24,915 bases of DNA, from IMG/VR virus record IMGVR_UViG_3300037247_000458, positions 1 through 24,915 of that record, one strand, 5' to 3'. The notes beneath the pieces are model-generated. The model searched no databases. It saw nothing but the letters and a program-made list of their open reading frames with translations, and was not told the origin of the DNA. Position 1 is the first letter of the stretch; each line of letters starts with the position of its first letter. The translations under genes and the position numbers were made by a program. Shown piece after piece: positions 9,637 through 20,487 of the stretch. Origin of the DNA: a virus.

Positions 9637-10632
9637 CTATTGGAAGAAATCGCGCACATCACTGGCGCTCGGACCAGCCCCGCCGCCTTGTGCCAACTGA
9701 CTCAGCAGCAAGAAATTCAAACCAGTATTAACGCCCCCGCCTATGCTTTGTCCCAGCGCAGAGAAACCCGAAGCCCTAGCTGCTGCTGCTGCTGTTTGAC
9801 CACCTACGGTCAGATTGCCGATGTTGGTTGCTGTTCTCGCCCCTAATTCTCCAAGTTGAGCGCCTGTAATTTGGCCTAGTCCAGCCACACTCGCCAGTCG
9901 GTTAAAACGACCAGCACGTTCTGTCTGGAAACGATTGAAAGCACTTTGAAATTCCTGAGAGGCCGTTCCTTGAGCGAAGCGTTCCAACTCTTTCAATGTT
10001 CCACCTGAAAGCAACCCACCCCGCGCAGCCGCCGAACGCTCTAAGGCTTTTTGTCCTTCAGACAGGCGAAACTCAAAGCCTGGGTCAGCTTGAAAATCCT
10101 CTAGGCTGAAATCTTCCTGCAATGAGCCAAATTCAGGGTCGGTTTCGGCTCCGGCAGGCGCAGCGATTCCGCCCCTGAAACGCTCAGGAACGTCAAAGCC
10201 AAACTGATCTCCCAATTGCCTCAATCTCTCAAACCGGCCTCCATCTTGCAACTCAGGAGAGTCAAATCCTCGACTGATCTGTGGTACTCCTCCTGGTTGA
10301 CCTGTGGGCTGTCCTGACAAGCCCAACAAGAAGGCTAACCGTTGAACCGCTAATGTGCCTGCTCCAAGAAAAGGAGCAAGATTCCCTTGAGTAATGCCAA
10401 ATTGCCTGCGCTGTTCGGCAATTGCCGCTTCGGAGGAGCGTTCCGCTGCTCTAGCCTGTACCGTCGCACCCTTCTTAGCCAAGACCCCACTAGCAACCGA
10501 CCCACCTATTGAAGCTGCCGCTAGGCCGATCCCAATCGCAGTTCCGATAACAGCCAATTCTACATCTTCGGGGGCGCTGGGAAAGACCCGCGAAAGCAGA
10601 AAGACAATCCCCCAAAACAACGCTCTGTTCAT
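9637..10632 (-). CDS. P22 gp7-like DNA ejection protein (331 aa)
   Basis: I start it at the ATG at 10632, because AGAGGAG lies just upstream and the ATG overlaps the previous stop (ATGA); a GTG at 10677 would add 15 residues without support. Residues 4-16 and 24-55 are hydrophobic (LFWGIVFLL; AVIGTAIGIGLAAASIGGSVASG). QRRQFGITQGNLAPFLGAG, then the central DPGFEFRLSEGQKALERSAAARG and SGGTLKEL segments, match the typical pattern of phage DNA-transfer/ejection proteins of the gp7 type. P22 gp7 (229 aa) loses a short N-terminal peptide during assembly, and the hydrophobic N-terminus here could be an equivalent. It sits between the GNAT-like gene and the two larger ejection proteins. Confidence 0.75.
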   Translation of the reverse strand: MNRALFWGIVFLLSRVFPSAPEDVELAVIGTAIGIGLAAASIGGSVASGVLAKKGATVQARAAERSSEAAIAEQRRQFGITQGNLAPFLGAGTLAVQRLAFLLGLSGQPTGQPGGVPQISRGFDSPELQDGGRFERLRQLGDQFGFDVPERFRGGIAAPAGAETDPEFGSLQEDFSLEDFQADPGFEFRLSEGQKALERSAAARGGLLSGGTLKELERFAQGTASQEFQSAFNRFQTERAGRFNRLASVAGLGQITGAQLGELGARTATNIGNLTVGGQTAAAAARASGFSALGQSIGGGVNTGLNFLLLSQLAQGGGAGPSASDVRDFFQ

Positions 10633-11138
10633 GCTGATTGCTCCTCTGGAAACGAAGCAAATAGTACCACATCGCACAATTCACCTTGCCGCCGTGTTTC
10701 CTTCTTCAACTCGCCTTCAAGTTTTGCTCCCAAGCGTCGGAGGAAGATGCGGTAAGCACGATTGTCAGCCAGGGCCATCCAGCGAATCTTTCTCGCCCCT
10801 TCAGAGAAGAACCGCCCCAGAGTTAGCTTGGCGGCTTCCAGTTTCTCTCTTGGCGTCAAAGCGTCCCGATCAAATACCAGATGGCCGGCAAAGACTTGAT
10901 CGCCTACATGCTCTCCCCACAGACAACCAACTACAGTTCCTTTCTGGACGATGGCGTAACTCTTTCCCCCAGCTTCTTGATCCCGCTGTGCTTTCTCTGT
11001 CATCTCCTCAAAGGTCTTTGGTGTAAAGTCATCCACCATTTGATCTTTGAACTCCTGCATCCAGCGCCAAAACAGTTGCAGGCATTCCTCTGGAAAAGGG
11101 GAAAGGATTTCATACTTTGGTTGAATTGCAACCGTCAT
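10629..11138 (-). CDS. GNAT-fold-like protein in P22 gp14 position (169 aa)
   Basis: The fold pattern is GNAT-like: YAIVQKGTVVGCLWGEHV (about 61-78) as the beta2-beta3 pair, a helix starting LTPREKLEAAKLTLGRFF, a strand IRWMALADNRAYRIFLRRLGA (about 118-138), then EGELKKETRRQGELCDVVLF, which resembles the C-terminal strands of acetyltransferases. A classical R/QxxGxG/A acetyl-CoA loop is not evident, so it may not be an active enzyme. Both ends overlap neighbours by four bases (ATGA). Phage T7 gp13, also next to the ejection genes, has been assigned a similar acyltransferase-like fold and acts in virion assembly. I infer an assembly factor at the P22 gp14 position (172 aa) rather than a metabolic acetyltransferase. 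Confidence 0.62.
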   Translation of the reverse strand: MTVAIQPKYEILSPFPEECLQLFWRWMQEFKDQMVDDFTPKTFEEMTEKAQRDQEAGGKSYAIVQKGTVVGCLWGEHVGDQVFAGHLVFDRDALTPREKLEAAKLTLGRFFSEGARKIRWMALADNRAYRIFLRRLGAKLEGELKKETRRQGELCDVVLFASFPEEQSA

Positions 11139-11701: not shown

Positions 11702-13126
11702 TTAGTTCCTCAAGCCTTCTGCGTCAAGCAAGGCTGAAATCATTGTGACAGGGATGGGATCGGTGATTGTCACTTCAAAAACAAAGTCCCTTCCTTGTCC
11801 AAGCCTGCGCCACAAAGCTCGATGCAGAAATTCGCCTTGTTTACCGACGCTGGCCCAATGTTCGTTTCCCCAAGAGTGCCCACCATCACGAGAAATTCTC
11901 AGCATAGCTTGTGGGTCAGACCCTTGCCCACTTGCCAAGCCCATCCCAGTTTCCATATCAAGCTGAAAGGCGTGCATGGTGAAGCGAGAACCGTTGTTGC
12001 TAAGATGGGGCGAGCGGCGCTGACGGGTGATTGTTGCCCCATCGTCGGTATAAGTGGAATCATCAAGTTGGTAGAGATTGCCATTTTCAAAGTCGTCCAC
12101 GATGTGCCGACCACCTGCAAAAGCATGGTTCTGAGCACGATGGCGGGTGCGAGTTCCATCGGATTTGGTGTAGTCACGCTCATGCCAGAGTCCGGTTGAA
12201 ACATCCAGCGCCCAAGTCGTATTGGCGTTTGGGAAATTGACGACATAGAAGGCGTGGCCTTTTCCCTGGTAGGTATAGGCGGTTGCTGTGGAGATGTCAC
12301 CATAGCCAGCAATTGCATTCTCAACTGCATGAGTGCTGACCCGCTTCCACTGATACCCTAGAGCCCGATTGACGATGTTCTGCCCATCCAGATCACGGGA
12401 AACACAGAAAATGCTGTTATCCAACTTCTGCGCTGTGTTGGCAGCGGCAATGCCTTGCTCCAAAAACTCCCGTCGTTCAAAGGGAAAGTCTAATGCACCA
12501 GAGTTGAAATAAACTTCGCTGGAGGTTCGACCTAAAAGCCACACTTCTCGGTGGTCAACCAATAAGGTCAAGAGGTCGTCGGTAGCACCCTCCTTGGTGG
12601 CAAAGTCCAGACCGTTCCAACTGGTAGCATCAGTTAGATCGGAAATCCAGAACTTGCGCGTTCCGACTTCATTGACAATCAGGTATTGATCCACAAAAGC
12701 ACAAGCGGAAGCGACGGGAAAATCAGGGTCGGTGATTTCTGCAAAGGTGTTGGTGCTGAATCTGAAGGTGTAGCCCTTCAATCCATCTACTAATAGAAGA
12801 TCAATCCCATTGTCCGACATGCAGACTTGTCCGGTGAATGTTCCGAGTGTCCCGTACTCAACGGCGGCGGTGAGCGTGATTTCGTAGAACTTGCTTCCAC
12901 TAACTGCAAACAGACGGCCATTGCCTGCGGTGTAGAGTCCACGGCCAGGGCCTGCGAGTGTAGCGATTCTTACCAAGCCCGGCGTGCCAATCAACGCAGC
13001 AATCTCCCGATTCTTTCCGGTACCTTTTTCGTTCAATTCAGCGTAGAGATTGAGAGATTTTTGAGCATCAACCGAAACTGATCGCAGCGTGTAGGATGGG
13101 CCGATGAATCCGGCAAAGGGGCGCAT
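11702..13126 (-). CDS. P22 gp10-like packaged-DNA stabilisation / tail accessory protein (474 aa)
   Basis: The start is the ATG at 13126, which shares its A with the upstream stop (TAATG); a TTG four codons upstream is less likely. The length matches P22 gp10 (472 aa). The N-terminal FIGPSYTLRSVSVDAQKSLNLYAE, the many beta-propeller-like repeats (GRGLYTAGNGRLFAVSGSKFYEI, STNTFAEITDPDFP, NGNLYQLDD) and the C-terminal LRISRDGGHSWG...ALWRRLGQGRDFVFEVTITDPIPV are characteristic of this family. It would plug the portal channel below gp4 and serve as a tailspike docking site. It follows the gp4-like gene as in P22. Confidence 0.85.
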   Translation of the reverse strand: MRPFAGFIGPSYTLRSVSVDAQKSLNLYAELNEKGTGKNREIAALIGTPGLVRIATLAGPGRGLYTAGNGRLFAVSGSKFYEITLTAAVEYGTLGTFTGQVCMSDNGIDLLLVDGLKGYTFRFSTNTFAEITDPDFPVASACAFVDQYLIVNEVGTRKFWISDLTDATSWNGLDFATKEGATDDLLTLLVDHREVWLLGRTSSEVYFNSGALDFPFERREFLEQGIAAANTAQKLDNSIFCVSRDLDGQNIVNRALGYQWKRVSTHAVENAIAGYGDISTATAYTYQGKGHAFYVVNFPNANTTWALDVSTGLWHERDYTKSDGTRTRHRAQNHAFAGGRHIVDDFENGNLYQLDDSTYTDDGATITRQRRSPHLSNNGSRFTMHAFQLDMETGMGLASGQGSDPQAMLRISRDGGHSWGNEHWASVGKQGEFLHRALWRRLGQGRDFVFEVTITDPIPVTMISALLDAEGLRN

Positions 13127-13881
13127 TACGGAATCCAACCACCACTTTTGATGTCGTACCGTCCTCTTCCCCTTCGTACCAGCAAGGCGTTGTCAACCCG
13201 TAGTTCGGGCGTGATGCTGTTGATGCGTTTCACGTTGGCCTTAGTCTGAACGGCAGCAATAGCAACTGCGGGAGGCACAGCTTTGCCATATTCGGGAGCC
13301 AAGCGGATCGCCAGTTCATAGACAATCGCATCGGCATATCCTGGCGGGAATGCCATTGCCTGATTGATGTTTGAAATTTGGCTCAGAAGATTCCAAGTGT
13401 AGATTATGAAGTCGTAGGATTTATCGGTTACAGGCCAGAGATTGATTACTCCCAAAGGATGCTTGGCCTCATAGTAGAGAATGTAAGGCCTGCCGGTAAT
13501 ACTCTTGTCCACAATGCTGGCCCAACGGTCTTGCTGCCAAACCGTGATGGGATATTCAAGGCTGTCTTCACTGATCCAAGGCTGCCCTGCTTCAATTCGT
13601 TGCGGGCGTACTTGATCCAGGTTTCCTCCTGGCCCAATCTCCAAAGAAGTTATAGCTGCAGAAATTGTGTAAGCATTTCGATTTACCACATGAACCAGCA
13701 ATTCCTCGGTGTTCCAGTTGTCCAGCATCCGATTGATTTCTTCCAAGGCATCGGCCAGTTCGTTGCCGTTTATCTCTTCTCCACTGGCAATGGCACCCAA
13801 TTTACGCAAGGCGGCTTTCACCAGCTTCACTCCGGTAGTGGAGTGTTGATAAACGGCATAGGGAGAGAGAAGGATTGGCAT
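13126..13881 (-). CDS. P22 gp4-like head-completion / tail accessory protein (251 aa)
   Basis: Residues 17-65 (GVKLVKAALRKLGAIASGEE...ADALEEINRMLDNWNTEELL) match the start of P22 gp4, which has a near-identical LVRAALRKLG helix. Near residue 180, ADAIVYELAIRLAPEYG matches the gp4 segment containing LACRIAPDY. Between them lies an insertion relative to the 166-residue P22 protein (residues about 70-165, with YPITVWQQDRWASIVDKS and PYILYYEAKHPLG), likely an extra beta domain at the portal-tail interface. The product should bind the portal after packaging and recruit the gp10-like protein. The stop overlaps the gp10-like ATG. Confidence 0.85.
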   Translation of the reverse strand: MPILLSPYAVYQHSTTGVKLVKAALRKLGAIASGEEINGNELADALEEINRMLDNWNTEELLVHVVNRNAYTISAAITSLEIGPGGNLDQVRPQRIEAGQPWISEDSLEYPITVWQQDRWASIVDKSITGRPYILYYEAKHPLGVINLWPVTDKSYDFIIYTWNLLSQISNINQAMAFPPGYADAIVYELAIRLAPEYGKAVPPAVAIAAVQTKANVKRINSITPELRVDNALLVRRGRGRYDIKSGGWIP

Positions 13882-14076
13882 TTAGGGTTTCCGTTTCTTT
13901 GGCCCGGTTGGAAGCTGCGGAGTTCGGACAGGCGTTTTGCGTTCGGGCTTTTCCTTCTCTGCTTGCTTGTGTGCATCTTTATAGCCCAGCGCTTTCAGGC
14001 TGGCTTCATCTTTGGCGTCATTGACCATAGCAACGCCGCCCTCATCAGACACTAGCTTTTTCGGGTATTCGCTCAT
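13882..14076 (-). CDS. Small Lys-rich phage protein (64 aa)
   Basis: The chosen ATG at 14076 has AAGGAG seven bases upstream; a longer frame upstream has no such site. The N-terminal EYPKKLVSDEGGVAMVNDAKDEASLKALGYK pattern (Tyr-Pro-Lys, Val-x-Asp, then an alignment helix) is similar to small proteins found among phage head-neck genes. The C-terminal half is Lys/Pro-rich and probably disordered. It overlaps the end of the GT-MT gene by 32 bases and its stop directly precedes the gp4-like ATG. The function is unknown. Confidence 0.65.
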   Translation of the reverse strand: MSEYPKKLVSDEGGVAMVNDAKDEASLKALGYKDAHKQAEKEKPERKTPVRTPQLPTGPKKRKP

Positions 14077-15361
14077 GCTGTTCTCCTTGAACAAAACAAA
14101 ACCAGATACTTGTTCCCGGGACGACAGTAGCGGTGGGGAGTAGTTCATCCACCGCCTGCCTTACTGTTTTCCAATCGTAGTCATGGCCGCAGAGCAAGCC
14201 TCCCGCACGAAGCATTGCCAGTCCGTTTTTAATGTCACGCTTGACAGGCTCGTAGTGGTGATCGCCGTCAATGAAAAGCATATCTGGTTTCTGCCCCCCG
14301 CCGTGTCCGTTGAACCACTCAGGCGGTAGCAGGTCAACCCTCTCATTGTTGGCACGAACAGGAACTACCTTGCCGGAATCAATATGTTCCTGTAGGTGCA
14401 GGCAAAAACCAAGATAGAGATTTTCTTCAAAGTCCGGCGTCAGGTTCTCAAGAATCTCTGGCCCCCAATGAGGCTTTATCCCCGTTCGCCAGTCGTCCAT
14501 TGCATAGACTTTTCCAACCGCGTTGTCAGCCAGGACGCGAGTTGAACGCCCAAGGAAAGAACCAAATTCCACAATCAACTTATGCTGCTTTGCTTGGGTA
14601 GCCAGCCAAACCAACTCTCTCGGTGCCATGTAACCCGGCGTGCCTAGTGCCTTGGTCAAACTCACATTCGATTTGGCGCCACCAGGAAGGCCAAGCAGGT
14701 ACTCATGGTAGTTGCCTGCATACGCCTTCTTGCCGATGTGGTGAAAATTAATGTCGGGATACACCCATAGTTGCCCCCCAATCTCGCGCCACAAGCGGCA
14801 AAAGAAATAGTCCTCGGGATAAAAGCGCCCCTCAAAGACTCCTGTACCAAAAAAGTTATAGGCTTCTTTGGTGGGTCCATTTTTAAGCCCCATAAAGTTC
14901 TTTTCATACTTCAATTCCGGGTAGTGTTTGGCTAGGATTTCAAAAACTTCTCGCTTGATTCGCATGAAGCCTGCGGGGAGAAACAAAGCCTCTACCAGCC
15001 CATCACGTCCCAAGAGTCTGCCATCCTCGGTCTTGAGTTCTATCGGAAACTCTGCAAGGTCTTGCTTGAGTGGGTAAATCCCGGCAATAACGTGGTCAGG
15101 TCGTTCCAAGAGTTCCACGACCGCTTTCGCATCGAACCCCACATCGGAATCAATGAAAAAGAAATCAGTCGCTTCTTTGTCGGCCATGAAATCTGCTACT
15201 AGGTTGTTTCGTGCCCTGCTGATACAAGCACAATCACAAATGGAAAATAAGTCGTGGGGGATTCCCTTGAGGTCAAGAATCCTCTGAACGTGCATCAGGC
15301 TTTGTGCACACTCCATTTGGAGTGCGCCGGTGAGAGCCGGAATCGCAAAGATAACCTTCAT
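14045..15361 (-). CDS. Bifunctional glycosyltransferase-methyltransferase fusion (438 aa)
   Basis: Residues 1-225 look like a GT-A glycosyltransferase of the type found in phages: IFAIPALTG at the start, SRARNNLVADFM (48-59), the metal-binding FFFIDSD (DSD at 71-73), AGIYPLKQ, a late YPEDYFFCRLWREIG (Glu183-Asp184 as likely base region) and a His pair in FHHIG (207-208). Residues 245-425 form a class I SAM-dependent methyltransferase of the Methyltransf_24 type: VEFGSFLGRST (264-274, motif I), YAMDDW (286-291), MLFIDGDHHYEPVKRDI (361-377) and AGGLLCGHDYDW (386-397). Both halves look intact. It lies between the head genes and the neck genes, so it is probably made late. I infer modification of a virion or host glycan; the substrate is unknown. 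A short hairpin lies just before the ATG. Confidence 0.85.
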   Translation of the reverse strand: MKVIFAIPALTGALQMECAQSLMHVQRILDLKGIPHDLFSICDCACISRARNNLVADFMADKEATDFFFIDSDVGFDAKAVVELLERPDHVIAGIYPLKQDLAEFPIELKTEDGRLLGRDGLVEALFLPAGFMRIKREVFEILAKHYPELKYEKNFMGLKNGPTKEAYNFFGTGVFEGRFYPEDYFFCRLWREIGGQLWVYPDINFHHIGKKAYAGNYHEYLLGLPGGAKSNVSLTKALGTPGYMAPRELVWLATQAKQHKLIVEFGSFLGRSTRVLADNAVGKVYAMDDWRTGIKPHWGPEILENLTPDFEENLYLGFCLHLQEHIDSGKVVPVRANNERVDLLPPEWFNGHGGGQKPDMLFIDGDHHYEPVKRDIKNGLAMLRAGGLLCGHDYDWKTVRQAVDELLPTATVVPGTSIWFCFVQGEQHERIPEKASV

Positions 15362-15362
15362 A

Positions 15363-15380
15363 GCGGGTTTTTGCTCCCGC
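15363..15380. promoter_or_regulatory. Hairpin directly upstream of the GT-MT start codon
   Basis: The plus strand has GCGGG, an eight-base loop, then CCCGC. On the minus strand it ends one base before the ATG at 15361 and includes the only GGGAG-like ribosome site. On the plus strand it is followed two bases later by five Ts. It could limit translation of the fusion or stop antisense transcription. This is weak evidence from sequence only. Confidence 0.35.
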
Positions 15381-15385
15381 AGTTT

Positions 15386-15589
15386 TTACGCCGCCACTAG
15401 GCCAAGTGCGATCAGCTTAGTGCGAAGGTCGTTTGCTAGGGTCTGCGTTGTGGCGGCATCTGTTCCTGCCGCTGCAATGCTGGCTTGGACCACTGGCGTA
15501 ATTCCATAGAAAGCAATGGGATCACTCGCCTTCAAGCCAACCAACCCGGCAATCGCATTGTTCGTGAGAGCACCTTCCGGTCGTCCCAT
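15386..15589 (-). CDS. Small head protein, paralogue 2 (67 aa)
   Basis: The ATG has AAGGAG with GAGGA just downstream. The sequence DPIAFYGITPVVQASIAAAG then TDAATTQTLANDLRTKLIAL is nearly the same as in the gene just upstream. The pattern (aliphatic FYG-x-TP-hVQ, Ala-rich linker, C-terminal helix ending LGL) is shared by small proteins located after coat genes in many tailed phages. It is possibly a capsid decoration or minor head protein. The N-termini of the two copies differ. Confidence 0.7.
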   Translation of the reverse strand: MGRPEGALTNNAIAGLVGLKASDPIAFYGITPVVQASIAAAGTDAATTQTLANDLRTKLIALGLVAA

Positions 15590-15656: not shown

Positions 15657-15863
15657 TTAGGTTGCGATGAGGCCCAAAGCGGCCAACTTGGTCCGCAAGT
15701 CGTTTGCTAGGGTCTGAGTCGTAGCCGCGTCGGTGCCCGCAGCGGCAATCGTCGCTTGGACAATCGGCGTGACTCCGTAGAAGCTGATGAGATCTGTGGC
15801 GGACTGGCCGAGGCCTGAACCGCCAGGGTTCCCATCACTCACTTGCTTAGCTGGTGCAGCCAT
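15657..15863 (-). CDS. Small head protein, paralogue 1 (68 aa)
   Basis: The ATG has AAAGGAG seven bases upstream and lies 12 bases after the coat gene. The N-terminus is GLGQSATDLISFYGVTPIVQ and the C-terminal 30 residues (TDAATTQTLANDLRTKLAAL) are almost identical to the downstream copy. The GQSATDxIxFYGxTPxxQ motif is common in small phage proteins encoded next to major capsid genes. I infer a capsid-associated protein. Strong ribosome sites on both copies imply high expression together with coat. Confidence 0.72.
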   Translation of the reverse strand: MAAPAKQVSDGNPGGSGLGQSATDLISFYGVTPIVQATIAAAGTDAATTQTLANDLRTKLAALGLIAT

Positions 15864-15875
15864 GTCAGTTCTCCT

Positions 15876-17063
15876 TTAGCCGTCCGCATGTATTCTGACA
15901 GCAATTTCCGGGTAGCGAGTCTTGTACCCGTAGATGATGTCAAACCGAGCGGGGACTTTGTAGTTGAGAATGTCGAACTGCTTGGCGAGGTTGAAGCGCA
16001 AACCATCTACGGTTTGCCGTGACCCCCATGCGCCAAACTGACTCGGATCAGGCAAGTCGGCAGAAGCGAACACAAAGGCTTCCTTGTGAAAGGCCAGCGA
16101 ACCGTTAATTAATTCACTAGCGCCTGCACCAAGGTTCACAATCGCCTTGCCATCGGCCAAGCCAGTGACATTCTGTTTCGCTCCTGATGTGACGGTGGCA
16201 GGGGAAATTGGCATATTGCCAGCACCGTCGAAATCAGCCGTCACCACGAACTGTTGCAGAATGCCCGTACTGGTCTTGGTTTCAGGGTGAACACGGAACA
16301 AGTCGGCAACTGTGATGATGTCACCGGCCAGGTATGTGAGGGTGCCGGTGTCAACCGCCAGCAATGCCCCGACAACCGGGTTGTTGGTTAGATAGGCCCC
16401 AGCCTTAACTTCCGTCCCGGTGGTGTGGTCGGAAACCAAGCTGGACGAACCAACATCAAAGCCGCACACCGACCCCATAATCCCGTCACGGAAGTTCTTG
16501 TTGAGATCGCTTTGCGGATTGAACAAACCCTTGTTGGCGTTGAGGAACTTCGCCACATGAGCGTTGCTCAGCAGAGCCGTGCGTTCGGCTGGCGGGGTGA
16601 GGGTATCATTCAACTTCGCCTGAGCATCTGCTACATGGCTGAAGTCGAATGCCGCCGCATCGCCGTCAATGATGTTGTAGATGTCCTTGGTCATGTTCAC
16701 CAAGGCATCGGACTCCACGTTGGCGGCCAGAACAGCCATTGCTGGTTCCAAGATGCGTTTGCTGAAATCGTCCAAACTCAGGGCGAGTTCCTGCATCCCG
16801 AAGTTGACCGCAACGTGCTTGTGTTTGTTGATGGTGAGTGTTTTGCTCGTTTCCACAGTATCCTGAACGACCATTGTTGCGCCGTCAGTTACCGTGTATC
16901 GGTTGGCATCACGAAGCCGGAGAGAATCTCCAATCTTCGCACCTTCCCTTCCAAACGAATCGTCGTACTGCCGGTCAATGCTTCCTACGAAAATGGCCTT
17001 CTGGTGAAAAACGCGGCCAGCTTCACGCAGAATCATATCCGGTGTGAGAATGGTGTTAGCCAT
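15876..17063 (-). CDS. Major capsid (coat) protein, P22 gp5-like (395 aa)
   Basis: Features typical of the P22-type coat family are visible: the N-terminal helix region ANTILTPDMILREAGRVFHQK, the IGDSLRLRDANRYTVTDGATM segment, TLTINKHKHVAVNFGMQELALSLDDFSKRILEPAMAVLAANVESD (the long spine-helix area, about residues 75-120), a Gly-rich inserted beta domain in the middle, and a C-terminal ADLPDPSQFGAWGSRQTVDGLRFNLAKQFDILNYKVPARFDIIYGYKTRYPE block. The length is close to P22 coat (430 aa). It follows scaffold directly, with AGAGGA upstream of the ATG. It assembles on the scaffold as an HK97-fold shell. Confidence 0.9.
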   Translation of the reverse strand: MANTILTPDMILREAGRVFHQKAIFVGSIDRQYDDSFGREGAKIGDSLRLRDANRYTVTDGATMVVQDTVETSKTLTINKHKHVAVNFGMQELALSLDDFSKRILEPAMAVLAANVESDALVNMTKDIYNIIDGDAAAFDFSHVADAQAKLNDTLTPPAERTALLSNAHVAKFLNANKGLFNPQSDLNKNFRDGIMGSVCGFDVGSSSLVSDHTTGTEVKAGAYLTNNPVVGALLAVDTGTLTYLAGDIITVADLFRVHPETKTSTGILQQFVVTADFDGAGNMPISPATVTSGAKQNVTGLADGKAIVNLGAGASELINGSLAFHKEAFVFASADLPDPSQFGAWGSRQTVDGLRFNLAKQFDILNYKVPARFDIIYGYKTRYPEIAVRIHADG

Positions 17064-17069
17064 CGGCTT

Positions 17070-18029
17070 TTATCCTCTAGCGCGGGAGCGCACTTGTGCT
17101 CTCCTTGCCTTCAGCCACTCATCGGTACTCATTTGGCCCGCCGAGGCAGGGTCGTCTGGTCTTAGCTTCCTTCCTCCGGCAGTCTTTTTGATAGGGGCGG
17201 TTGGCTTGGGAGCACGCGACACAGCAGGAGTTTCGGTTTCTTGGCCGTTCCCCTGTGTGTTTTGTGCGAGTTTGTCCGCGATAGCGCCCAACGACATCAC
17301 CGCTGATTTTGGGTTCTGTTTGGCGATTCGTTGTAGTTCATCCGGGTTTTGTCCGAGAAAGTAAAGCACTGCTGGTCCTTGGTCGGAAGCCATAATCGCC
17401 GCAGCCATTTCCTTGGTCGCCGGGCTGTTCAATTGCCCCAACATACCCAAAGCAGCATCAGCCACTTCATCGTAGCCCTCACCGTCTGGCGGGCTTTCGG
17501 GTAGGGTTTCTGCAAACGCAGCCTCACGTCCCAGAAACTCTCGCCCTTGCTGTTGCTGCTCTGTTTGGGCTTGGCTTTCTCTTGCCTTCGTATCGCGCTC
17601 GGTTAGCCGTTGCTCCAGTTTCCAATCGGTCAACGCTTCGGTGTAAGCAGCATGGTCGAACCCACCGCCATCTTCTTCCTTGATAGCGAAATCCTCTGGT
17701 TTTGGTTTGGACTTCGCCTCAACAGCGGTCGGTTGTTTTTCTTCCTGCTGGCGGCTTTGTGCTTGTCCGCGCCAGTAGTCAGCTTCGGCTTGGGCTGCTT
17801 CGGCTCGTGCATTGAGCTTGCGAATGCGACGCTGAAAGCCTCCTGGTTTCTTGGGCTTTTTAGCTTCCTCTGTCTCTTCCTCGTCACCCGTAGTTTCGCG
17901 GGTTTCTCGCTCTTCTTCAGGCGTTGCCGATTCAACCTCGGTTTCGCCCTCCGTCGCGCCAGGGACTACTTCCTTTACTTCCCCAACTTTTTCTTCGGTG
18001 GACTCGGCTACTTTTTCTTCTGGACTCAT
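17070..18029 (-). CDS. Scaffolding protein, P22 gp8-like (319 aa)
   Basis: The position between portal and coat and the length (P22 gp8 is 303 aa) fit scaffold. The first ~75 residues are very acidic (Glu-rich). Residues about 80-165 are Lys/Arg/Gln/Glu-rich and helical (RRIRKLNARAEAAQAEADYW, RESQAQTEQQQQ). A middle helix region (ALGMLGQLNSPATKEMAAAIM) precedes a Pro/Thr-rich linker. The C-terminal ~25 residues end in a basic helix (DEWLKARRAQVRSRARG), as expected for a coat-binding tail. The ATG has GGAGGG at good spacing. It is the first gene after the terminator at 18096-18133. Confidence 0.85.
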   Translation of the reverse strand: MSPEEKVAESTEEKVGEVKEVVPGATEGETEVESATPEEERETRETTGDEEETEEAKKPKKPGGFQRRIRKLNARAEAAQAEADYWRGQAQSRQQEEKQPTAVEAKSKPKPEDFAIKEEDGGGFDHAAYTEALTDWKLEQRLTERDTKARESQAQTEQQQQGREFLGREAAFAETLPESPPDGEGYDEVADAALGMLGQLNSPATKEMAAAIMASDQGPAVLYFLGQNPDELQRIAKQNPKSAVMSLGAIADKLAQNTQGNGQETETPAVSRAPKPTAPIKKTAGGRKLRPDDPASAGQMSTDEWLKARRAQVRSRARG

Positions 18030-18168: not shown

Positions 18169-18333
18169 CTACTGCGTTGCTACTACTTGTTCAACCCTCC
18201 TACTTGGAATCATTCTCGGAAAGGAGAACTTGTTGAGATATTTGCAATGGCACTTCACCTCAAATTCTCCTTTCTCAACTCGCCCCTTCAGCAAGAGCCG
18301 TCGGCATCTCTTACACCTGAGTTCGGCCATCAT
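18169..18333 (-). CDS. Com-like small zinc-finger protein (54 aa)
   Basis: The ATG overlaps the portal stop (TGATG). The translation begins MMAELRCKRCRRLLLKG, followed about ten residues later by FEVKCHCKYLNKF. Cys7-Cys10 and Cys28-Cys30 form a likely zinc site. The RCxxCxxLLhK and hEhKC pattern is that of the Com family, first known as the Mu translational activator of mom and widespread as short ORFs in phage head-gene clusters. Here the second pair is C-x-C instead of the usual C-x2-C. The C-terminal ~15 residues are basic. The role in this cluster is unknown; RNA binding is inferred. A strong terminator follows 35 bases downstream. Confidence 0.75.
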   Translation of the reverse strand: MMAELRCKRCRRLLLKGRVEKGEFEVKCHCKYLNKFSFPRMIPSRRVEQVVATQ

Positions 18334-20348
18334 CAGATTTCTTTGGCCGTCTGCGCTGACTCTCTTGCCTTTTCTTGCACATCAACCTGCAACCGGCTCT
18401 TAATCGCATCAATCTCTGCTTTTAGTAGCGCAATTGCCTCCTGGCTGTCAAGTCTTTGTTGCTCTAGTTGTGCGTTCACCTGGAGTTTCGCCATCTCGAT
18501 CCCTTGGCGGCTTTGCAATTCTTGGACTTCTTGAGTCCGTTTTTCCAGTTCCTTACTCAGGGCTTCAAGCATCTGCTTCGCTTGTTCCAACTGAGCCTTT
18601 ACTTGTGGGGGAATGGGCTGTTGGCCGTCTTGCAGTTCGGGGGGGAGGAGTTTGTGGAGTCGCTTCGCCAATTCCTGCGCTTTCGGCATATCCAAGTTTT
18701 CCGCCAAGATGTCGCCCGCTATCTGCATCAATTGCGGATAGGCTCTAGTCAGTTCGATCATTTGGGCGGCAACTTCTTGGCGCTTGGAGCCGAAACTTGG
18801 CCCAGCGGTAGCAATCACATCGTATTTGCCCACTCCGAGCTTGTAGTGCTTAGGCTTTCCATTGTCTTGGAAGCGTGCATTTACGCGCACGATCTTTTGT
18901 TCTTCATCTTCTCCGATGATTCGCACCATGCGGTCGGTATCGTAAATCTTGGGGATCAGGTCAACCTCAATACGGGCGCCATGTTCAACCGAGCGCCGCA
19001 AGTTATCGCCATAATGGAAATTGGAAGTTTCCCCTTGCTGTACGCGGGCGATGATGGCGCGCCCGCTGGTTTCGTTTGAAGGTGCACCGATTTGGGGAGG
19101 ATTAGTTCCCGTAGTTGCAAACAAATCATCTACAGCCTCTCTGCGGGCATTGATTATGGCAACGATGTTTGGATCGGCTGCTAAACGTTGTGGGAAAGGA
19201 GCAGGCTGACCTGCGATGGCCGTAGGTTTGATTTCCAGCCAAGCTAAATTCCTTGTGTTGGCTTCGGCCCACTCTTTTCTGTGGCCTTCAAGCTGGCCCT
19301 CATAGACGATTATGGGTGCTTTGGGTGTTAGGGCAATGGATTCAGTTTCAGCCGATGCCATCCAGTTCAATTGTTTTTGCGGCTCTTTGGCGTTGCGAAT
19401 GATTCCATTCAGGTGCAGCTTGCCATCTATCTCAATCTCATCCCCGATTACTTTCACAATAGGAATCCACAGTCCCAGCCATTCGACTTGCTCCAAGACT
19501 TCGACTGCATTCAACTTGCAAGATTTGATGTAGGGAATTTCAGTTTCGCGGTTAGCAATGACTGTGAGTTCTTTGTCTAATTGCTTTTCAAGATTCTCTA
19601 ACTCACTTTTCAGAATCGGCAATGGGCCTTGGGGTGTTTCTACCATCAAAAGAGTTTCGCGCCGACGCTTGCGGTAATAATACTGCACGATCCGAATACC
19701 TTGGTCGGTGATCCAATCTGCATCGTCATCACCTGTGGCTCTGAAATCATCAAGTCCTTTAGCGTCGGCATCGGGGTAGGCTTGCTCAAATTCTTTTTTG
19801 GTAAATTGTTCGGTGATGAAACCAAAGTCGGCATCGGAACCGTCCGGTTCTTGGCTGGACGGGTCGAGATAGACGCTGAAAGGATTTCTAATTCGCTTGA
19901 TAACAATATCCTGGTCGAAACTCATCGCATTGGAAAATTCCGTGGTGATATGCCAGTAACCCCAACCCATAGCGGCAGCATAGAAAGCTGCTGTGTCAAA
20001 AGCTAAATCCGCATGAGATTGGACATGGATATGTCGAATGATTCCTTGCAAGACTTCCGCTGTTTCAATATCCGACTTGTCGTCTACTGGCAGAACCCTG
20101 GAAGAAATGCGATTGCTGCGTTGGGGATTAGTTGTTGCCCGAACCAATCCCGGCAGGCGATTGATGGTATGGCAAGGACGGTCATTGGTAATACGCTCGG
20201 TTTTGATTCTGTCGTCCCATTGGTCGCCATTGAGAAAGCGCAAATCTTCCAACGCTTCCACTCGCATATCATGTTCGGCATCCTGAACCTGCCGGAACTG
20301 TTCTTTCGCTTCGGCAATCAGGTCTTGGTCGGAGATGTTATCAGGCAT
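18333..20348 (-). CDS. Portal protein, P22 gp1-like (671 aa)
   Basis: I start at the ATG at 20348, with GGAG six bases upstream; an upstream in-frame codon would add 18 residues that overlap the preceding gene. The N-terminal half has the P22-portal signature: an AEHDMRVEALEDLRFLNGDQWD helix-loop, RPCHTINRLPGLVRATTN, AFYAAAMGWGYWHITTEF and RNPFSVYLDPSSQEPDGSDADFGF. The C-terminal ~110 residues are a Gln/Glu/Lys-rich coiled coil (from about QLEQAKQMLEALSKEL), comparable to the P22 barrel/C-terminal helix (P22 portal is 725 aa). It forms the dodecameric DNA gate bound by TerL and gp4. The stop overlaps the Com-like start. Confidence 0.9.
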   Translation of the reverse strand: MPDNISDQDLIAEAKEQFRQVQDAEHDMRVEALEDLRFLNGDQWDDRIKTERITNDRPCHTINRLPGLVRATTNPQRSNRISSRVLPVDDKSDIETAEVLQGIIRHIHVQSHADLAFDTAAFYAAAMGWGYWHITTEFSNAMSFDQDIVIKRIRNPFSVYLDPSSQEPDGSDADFGFITEQFTKKEFEQAYPDADAKGLDDFRATGDDDADWITDQGIRIVQYYYRKRRRETLLMVETPQGPLPILKSELENLEKQLDKELTVIANRETEIPYIKSCKLNAVEVLEQVEWLGLWIPIVKVIGDEIEIDGKLHLNGIIRNAKEPQKQLNWMASAETESIALTPKAPIIVYEGQLEGHRKEWAEANTRNLAWLEIKPTAIAGQPAPFPQRLAADPNIVAIINARREAVDDLFATTGTNPPQIGAPSNETSGRAIIARVQQGETSNFHYGDNLRRSVEHGARIEVDLIPKIYDTDRMVRIIGEDEEQKIVRVNARFQDNGKPKHYKLGVGKYDVIATAGPSFGSKRQEVAAQMIELTRAYPQLMQIAGDILAENLDMPKAQELAKRLHKLLPPELQDGQQPIPPQVKAQLEQAKQMLEALSKELEKRTQEVQELQSRQGIEMAKLQVNAQLEQQRLDSQEAIALLKAEIDAIKSRLQVDVQEKARESAQTAKEI

Positions 20349-20487
20349 GACTTCTCCGACGTTTGAAATGTTCCACCTGGGCCAACCGGCGCAAGGCTCC
20401 AATCTTGGAACGGAAAGGCCCGCCCAACCTTCGACCTTTCCTGCTTCTCACGGTGAACCCCTTCTTTTTGTTTCCGTGGATGCTCAT
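20341..20487 (-). CDS. Small basic phage protein (48 aa)
   Basis: The ATG at 20487 overlaps the previous stop (ATGA) and the gene overlaps the portal start by 8 bases. The sequence has KGFTVRSRKGRRLGGPFRSK and then ALRRLAQVEHFKRRR. The xxxGxxLGxxxSKxxAxxRLxQVExFK pattern is that of a common family of short phage ORFs near terminase and portal genes. The function is unknown; it is very basic, so nucleic-acid binding is possible. Confidence 0.65.
   Translation of the reverse strand: MSIHGNKKKGFTVRSRKGRRLGGPFRSKIGALRRLAQVEHFKRRRSHA

Follow-up and report, generated by a model that had tools for sequence, protein, structure and literature searches.

Gene organization of the locus

The window analyzed here is an entire 24,915-base IMG/VR record. 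On the minus strand lies a P22-type block in which genes for the terminase, portal, scaffold and coat are followed by two small paralogues, a glycosyltransferase-methyltransferase (GT-MT) fusion, an overlapping open reading frame (ORF), and gp4-like and gp10-like genes:

18333..20402 (-), portal protein (profile match)
17070..18029 (-), scaffolding protein (profile match)
15876..17063 (-), P22-like major coat protein (phrog_283)
15657..15863 (-), small head protein 1, 68 aa, with FYGVTPIVQ and AAAGTDAATTQ; candidate acceptor
15386..15589 (-), small head protein 2, 67 aa, paralogue with a near-identical C-terminal half; candidate acceptor
14045..15361 (-), GT-MT fusion gene, 438 aa (ORF, profile matches, AlphaFold2 model, fold matches)
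13882..14148 (-), small ORF, partly shared with the 3' end of the fusion and probably starting at 14076, after aaggag
13126..13881 (-), gp4-like head-tail adaptor (phrog_12985/637)
11702..13138 (-), gp10-like head closure protein (profile match)

The fusion is, as an earlier note on this DNA had described it, a single intact gene of 438 codons, with an ATG start and no internal stop. The same note had placed it exactly between the small head proteins and the gp4-like gene, where P22 was said to have nothing. The position stands, but not the word "exactly", since the short ORF 13882-14148 intervenes; likewise, P22 does carry the 69-aa orf69 between gene 5 and gene 4, although no enzyme. No membrane segment was found in the fusion, whose highest 19-residue hydropathy is 1.25.

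Scans of IMG/VR and searches of the PDB with the single fusion sequence gave no matches, and its relatives came from profile searches. Full-length relatives of 40-66% identity occur in at least five other contigs, several of which have them in the same slot, so that the search for this fusion at this locus suggested in the earlier note had a positive outcome. Compared with the nearest relative (L086), pN/pS is 0.31 for the GT half and 0.32 for the MT half; judged from these alignments, purifying selection acts equally on the two halves. A chance ORF is ruled out by the existence of full-length relatives elsewhere together with these low pN/pS values.

Two further features of the window deserve mention. 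The sequence GCGGGAGCAAAAACCCGC at positions 15362-15380 (minus strand), directly before the fusion ATG, could form a 5-bp stem-loop that includes the nearest GGAG of the fusion and might limit its translation. In the tail-gene block, positions 10629-11138 give a weak acetyltransferase match (phrog_1249, E 5e-5) that is kept in contig L091 and has no match in Pfam.

Two predicted catalytic halves in one polypeptide

The motifs of the fusion lie at the residues given in the earlier note, and can be mapped as follows:

14657..15361 (-), A197-type GT-A half, residues 1-235 (phrog_1574; 2c0n by fold and sequence profile)
15143..15151 (-), DSD (DxD), residues 71-73; neither Asp varies among 24 diverse GTs
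14810..14815 (-), ED, residues 183-184; candidate acceptor-site/base residues (Asp184 invariant, Glu183 >90%)
14738..14740 (-), invariant His208; may be the third metal ligand in the GT-A site
14045..14656 (-), class I O-methyltransferase half, residues 236-438 (Methyltransf_24; MeT1 by profile)
14540..14572 (-), SAM motif I, VEFGSFLGRST, residues 264-274 (sequence alignment)
14252..14275 (-), FIDGDHHY, residues 363-370; Asp365 and His368 invariant
14180..14188 (-), GHD, residues 392-394; probable metal/catalytic motif, invariant in five fusions

The whole protein was modelled with AlphaFold2 from 38 sequences, at a mean pLDDT of 90.4. The model comprises one GT-A domain followed by the MT, with no second GT domain between them; Foldseek recovers a GT-A and then a class I MT fold. 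The N-terminal half matches phrog_1574, a family of unknown function, over residues 2-213 (E 2.2e-22). The top PDB match of the model is A197 of the archaeal virus STIV (2c0n; E 2.3e-9, target TM 0.63), and the collagen glycosyltransferase LH3 is also among the fold matches. Moreover, a GT-only profile retrieves A197 by sequence (E 0.00036), with the DED of A197 aligned over DSD. Asp71, Asp73, Asp184 and His208 are all invariant across the 24 diverse GTs. Sequence and model together strongly support the N-terminal half as an A197-type GT-A glycosyltransferase with intact catalytic residues and predicted activity.

The C-terminal half matches Pfam Methyltransf_24 over residues 264-395, with 49.1 bits against a curated cut-off of 26.3. 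After A197, the best solved folds are Mycobacterium hassiacum MeT1 and CalS11, a TDP-rhamnose 3'-O-methyltransferase, and an MT profile retrieves MeT1 (6g7d, E 2e-8). MeT1 acts on an oligomannoside, methylating and thereby blocking a sugar hydroxyl (PMC9883506). Catechol and phenolic O-methyltransferases appear in the match list beside these two sugar-acting enzymes. Asp365 and His368 are invariant in alignments of five fusions and one stand-alone relative. A class I methyltransferase with intact catalytic residues is strongly supported by the profile match and the model, and its closest solved folds suggest a sugar-type enzyme with a putative sugar substrate. The identities first proposed from the motifs therefore hold for both halves, and the loss of catalytic residues that would have spoken against them is seen in neither.

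A conserved slot with recurrent methyltransferase pairing

The order coat, small protein, GT, gp4 is found in about 98 distinct environmental P22-like loci, 89 of them with the small protein. When loci were sampled by coat only, a GT occupied the slot at 28 of 80; it is absent from P22 itself and from the cultured P22-like relatives examined. The phages bearing the fusion are uncultivated; the genome scan turned up a single MAG contig carrying P22-like genes (L213), which gave no host.

An MT is also present in at least 38 of the approximately 98 GT-slot loci, and belongs to three lineages, two fused and one adjacent. The first is the fused Methyltransf_24 of the window gene and its kin. The second is likewise fused, but is a divergent class I enzyme bearing the motifs GSGLST and DGPPR. 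The third is a separate Methyltransf_11 gene encoding about 170 aa, which often overlaps the GT start by 4 bases. At least 18 changes of MT state are counted on the GT tree.

Other arrangements were encountered. Locus L008 has, in the slot, two GT2 domains joined to an A197-like domain. In L157, a MptE-like (PF01973) protein, just under the Pfam cut-off, lies directly after the small protein and replaces the GT (L157:6480-7292); flagellin glycosyltransferases belong among the MptE-like families. Fusions in both orders occur in loci with no detected P22-like genes (MT-GT in L217; GT-MT in L220 and L226). Finally, L048:2-2632 is an 876-aa open frame combining a MoxR-type AAA, a GT2 and an A197-like GT, of which the AAA part lies at the contig end and may be an assembly join.

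Small head proteins as candidate acceptors

A gene for a small "FYGxTPVVQ" protein lies just upstream of the GT, and the two co-occur. In 65 coat-sampled loci, both were found in 22, the small protein alone in 3, the GT alone in 3 and neither in 37 (Fisher p 4e-11, a value that ignores kinship), an association that may be inflated as both profiles were seeded largely from loci having both genes. Independent contrasts on the coat tree gave about six of eight pairs agreeing in direction and none disagreeing (median p 0.03). A nearby GT is missing at about 13 of 69 small-bearing loci.

Divergence is also shared. Across 53-57 loci, GT distance follows small-protein distance and not coat or gp4 distance; the correlation resides in the C-terminal half of the small protein (r=0.49, p=0.002), as opposed to r 0.02 for the N-terminal half and about 0 for the coat. 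Small paralogues of the same genome, including pairs that flank the GT, are near-identical in the C half and unrelated in the N half. In our reading, the N part of the small protein would bind the capsid and the C part would be exposed or oligomerize. The sequence pattern linking C half and GT fits an enzyme-acceptor pair, and trimer compatibility and physical linkage could explain part of the co-variation. The Ser/Thr content of the small protein shows no difference, being 23% with a GT and 20% without (p 0.5), the latter group comprising nine proteins. The structure model of the small protein, of low confidence (pLDDT 67), was left out of the fold search.

The synonymous divergence of the fusion from its counterpart L086:7743-9026 is about 1.6, far above that of the small genes (0.38-0.79) and coat (0.59), which suggests allele replacement by recombination. 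This mismatch implies that the enzyme and its candidate acceptor can move separately. The small-protein domain is also found as the C-terminus of fibre- or spike-like proteins (L303:1379-4165, 928 aa; L305:1871-4192, 773 aa; L317:2855-4198, 447 aa), and phrog_29706 (tail spike) matches it as well.

The small head protein is regarded here as the leading candidate acceptor, with coat or tail proteins as second choice. More tentatively, and with doubts that outweigh our confidence, we suggest that uncultivated P22-like phages share an undescribed, widespread cassette that matches each GT, whether or not an MT accompanies it, to the C half of the small protein, the pair co-evolving and being swapped between capsid lineages.

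Proposed function and alternatives

We consider it probable that the GT-MT gene encodes a late-expressed virion glycosylation enzyme by which a host-derived sugar is added and then methyl-capped, the C half of the small protein being the leading candidate for its acceptor. The enzyme would be expressed late, within a virion glycosylation module. Its GT-A half would transfer a host-made, nucleotide-activated sugar onto a structural protein of the phage while the particle is being assembled. The O-methyltransferase half would then methylate a hydroxyl of the added sugar, or of a short glycan, to form the cap. The sugar would be accepted by the small head proteins whose genes lie directly upstream, in their C-terminal half, which contains Ser and Thr, and the benefit could be a changed surface, adsorption or shielding. 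Activity, order of both reactions, donor sugar, acceptor and benefit are all putative in this scheme, and the placement of the sugar on the virion, and on a given virion protein, is likewise presumptive. Virion modification is supported by the conservation of the slot in about 98 loci, the co-occurrence and co-variation with the small protein, the pairing with MTs of three lineages, and published precedents.

This agrees in part with the earlier interpretation of the gene as a system adding and methyl-capping a sugar on the virion, except that the system can no longer be called self-contained. The two sugar-nucleotide families searched, NAD-epimerase and nucleotidyl-transferase, have no member in any of 17 related records, which makes a host-made donor most likely.

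The closest alternative also involves virion glycosylation and overlaps the preferred reading, differing only on the acceptor: the coat or a tail or spike protein would be modified, and the small protein would be a mere neighbour. Capsid and tail tube are stated to be modified in known phage cases (PMC11600133), some loci have a GT with no detected small protein, and the small-type domain also terminates long spike- or fibre-like proteins. Against this, GT divergence tracks the C half of the small protein and not the coat, and we judge a coat or tail acceptor unlikely, while keeping it ahead of the remaining alternatives.

The enzyme could instead act, late in infection, on glycans of the host surface (O-antigen or capsule), altering receptors in a Gtr-like manner and leading to superinfection exclusion or release. 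Glycosyl transfer and sugar O-methylation would be suitable chemistry, and the donor would be host-derived, as for the window fusion. Nevertheless, the late structural slot recurs in about 98 loci and is linked with a small head protein, which leaves this explanation improbable. A Gtr-type conversion set consists of a membrane glycosyltransferase, a flippase and a bactoprenol glycosyltransferase. O-antigen conversion of that type was rejected, the fusion being soluble, with no membrane segment, and its neighbours being head genes.

Glycosylation and methylation of modified bases in phage DNA are less probable still. Related GTs are found in early regions (L004 and L005, the latter with a Methyltransf_24 gene nearby), and the MT half also matches phrog_2675, which carries the name DNA methyltransferase; but DNA is not the substrate of the closest solved MTs, which modify sugars and small-molecule hydroxyls. 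A hypermodification system was rejected on the position of the gene among head genes, not replication genes, and on the absence from all 17 related records, some of them incomplete, of the thymidylate synthase/hydroxymethylase family (PF00303) that would supply the base precursor. Finally, a moron-like or decaying insertion with no virion role, compatible with the absence of the gene from the cultured P22-like relatives examined, is hardly credible given the equal purifying selection on both halves, the invariant catalytic residues and the retention of the fusion down to 40% identity.

Comparison with known systems

Virion glycosylation combining GT and O-MT activities is already known, from chlorovirus A064R and from cluster O actinophages. 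In PBCV-1, the GT-GT-methyltransferase A064R extends the capsid glycan and 2-O-methylates its terminal sugar with one polypeptide (PMC9614988). It resembles the window fusion in joining GT and MT in a single viral polypeptide, but has two GT domains, belongs to a eukaryotic chlorovirus and extends an N-glycan. A 638-residue viral protein, likened to A064R by its size, appears at a weak rank in the BFVD fold list. Cluster O mycobacteriophages encode an O-MT and three GTs, whose stated targets are the capsid and tail tube (PMC11600133). As in the window module, the O-methyltransferase adjoins glycosyltransferases in that description; unlike it, the genes are separate, the phages are siphoviruses, and no link to a small head protein is described.

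Each half of the fusion also has its own closest relatives. STIV, the virus encoding A197, has a glycosylated coat (PMC10551542). A197 has the same fold as the N half and weakly belongs to the same sequence family, but it lacks a methyltransferase domain, comes from an unrelated virus, and its acceptor is also only putative. MeT1 and CalS11, the closest solved folds to the C half, are stand-alone bacterial enzymes acting on small glycans.

P22-type capsids are a textbook model of assembly. No description of a P22-like GT-MT module was found in the open-access literature, nor any glycosylation of a P22-type capsid in the literature searched; the P22-like module, its fused enzyme and its candidate acceptor appear to be new. 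If the proposed function is correct, glycosylation would be a common trait of environmental relatives of P22, and the module would name both an acceptor half-protein and one bifunctional enzyme, which would open the glycosylation of phage proteins to testing in a laboratory E. coli strain with no more than two small genes.
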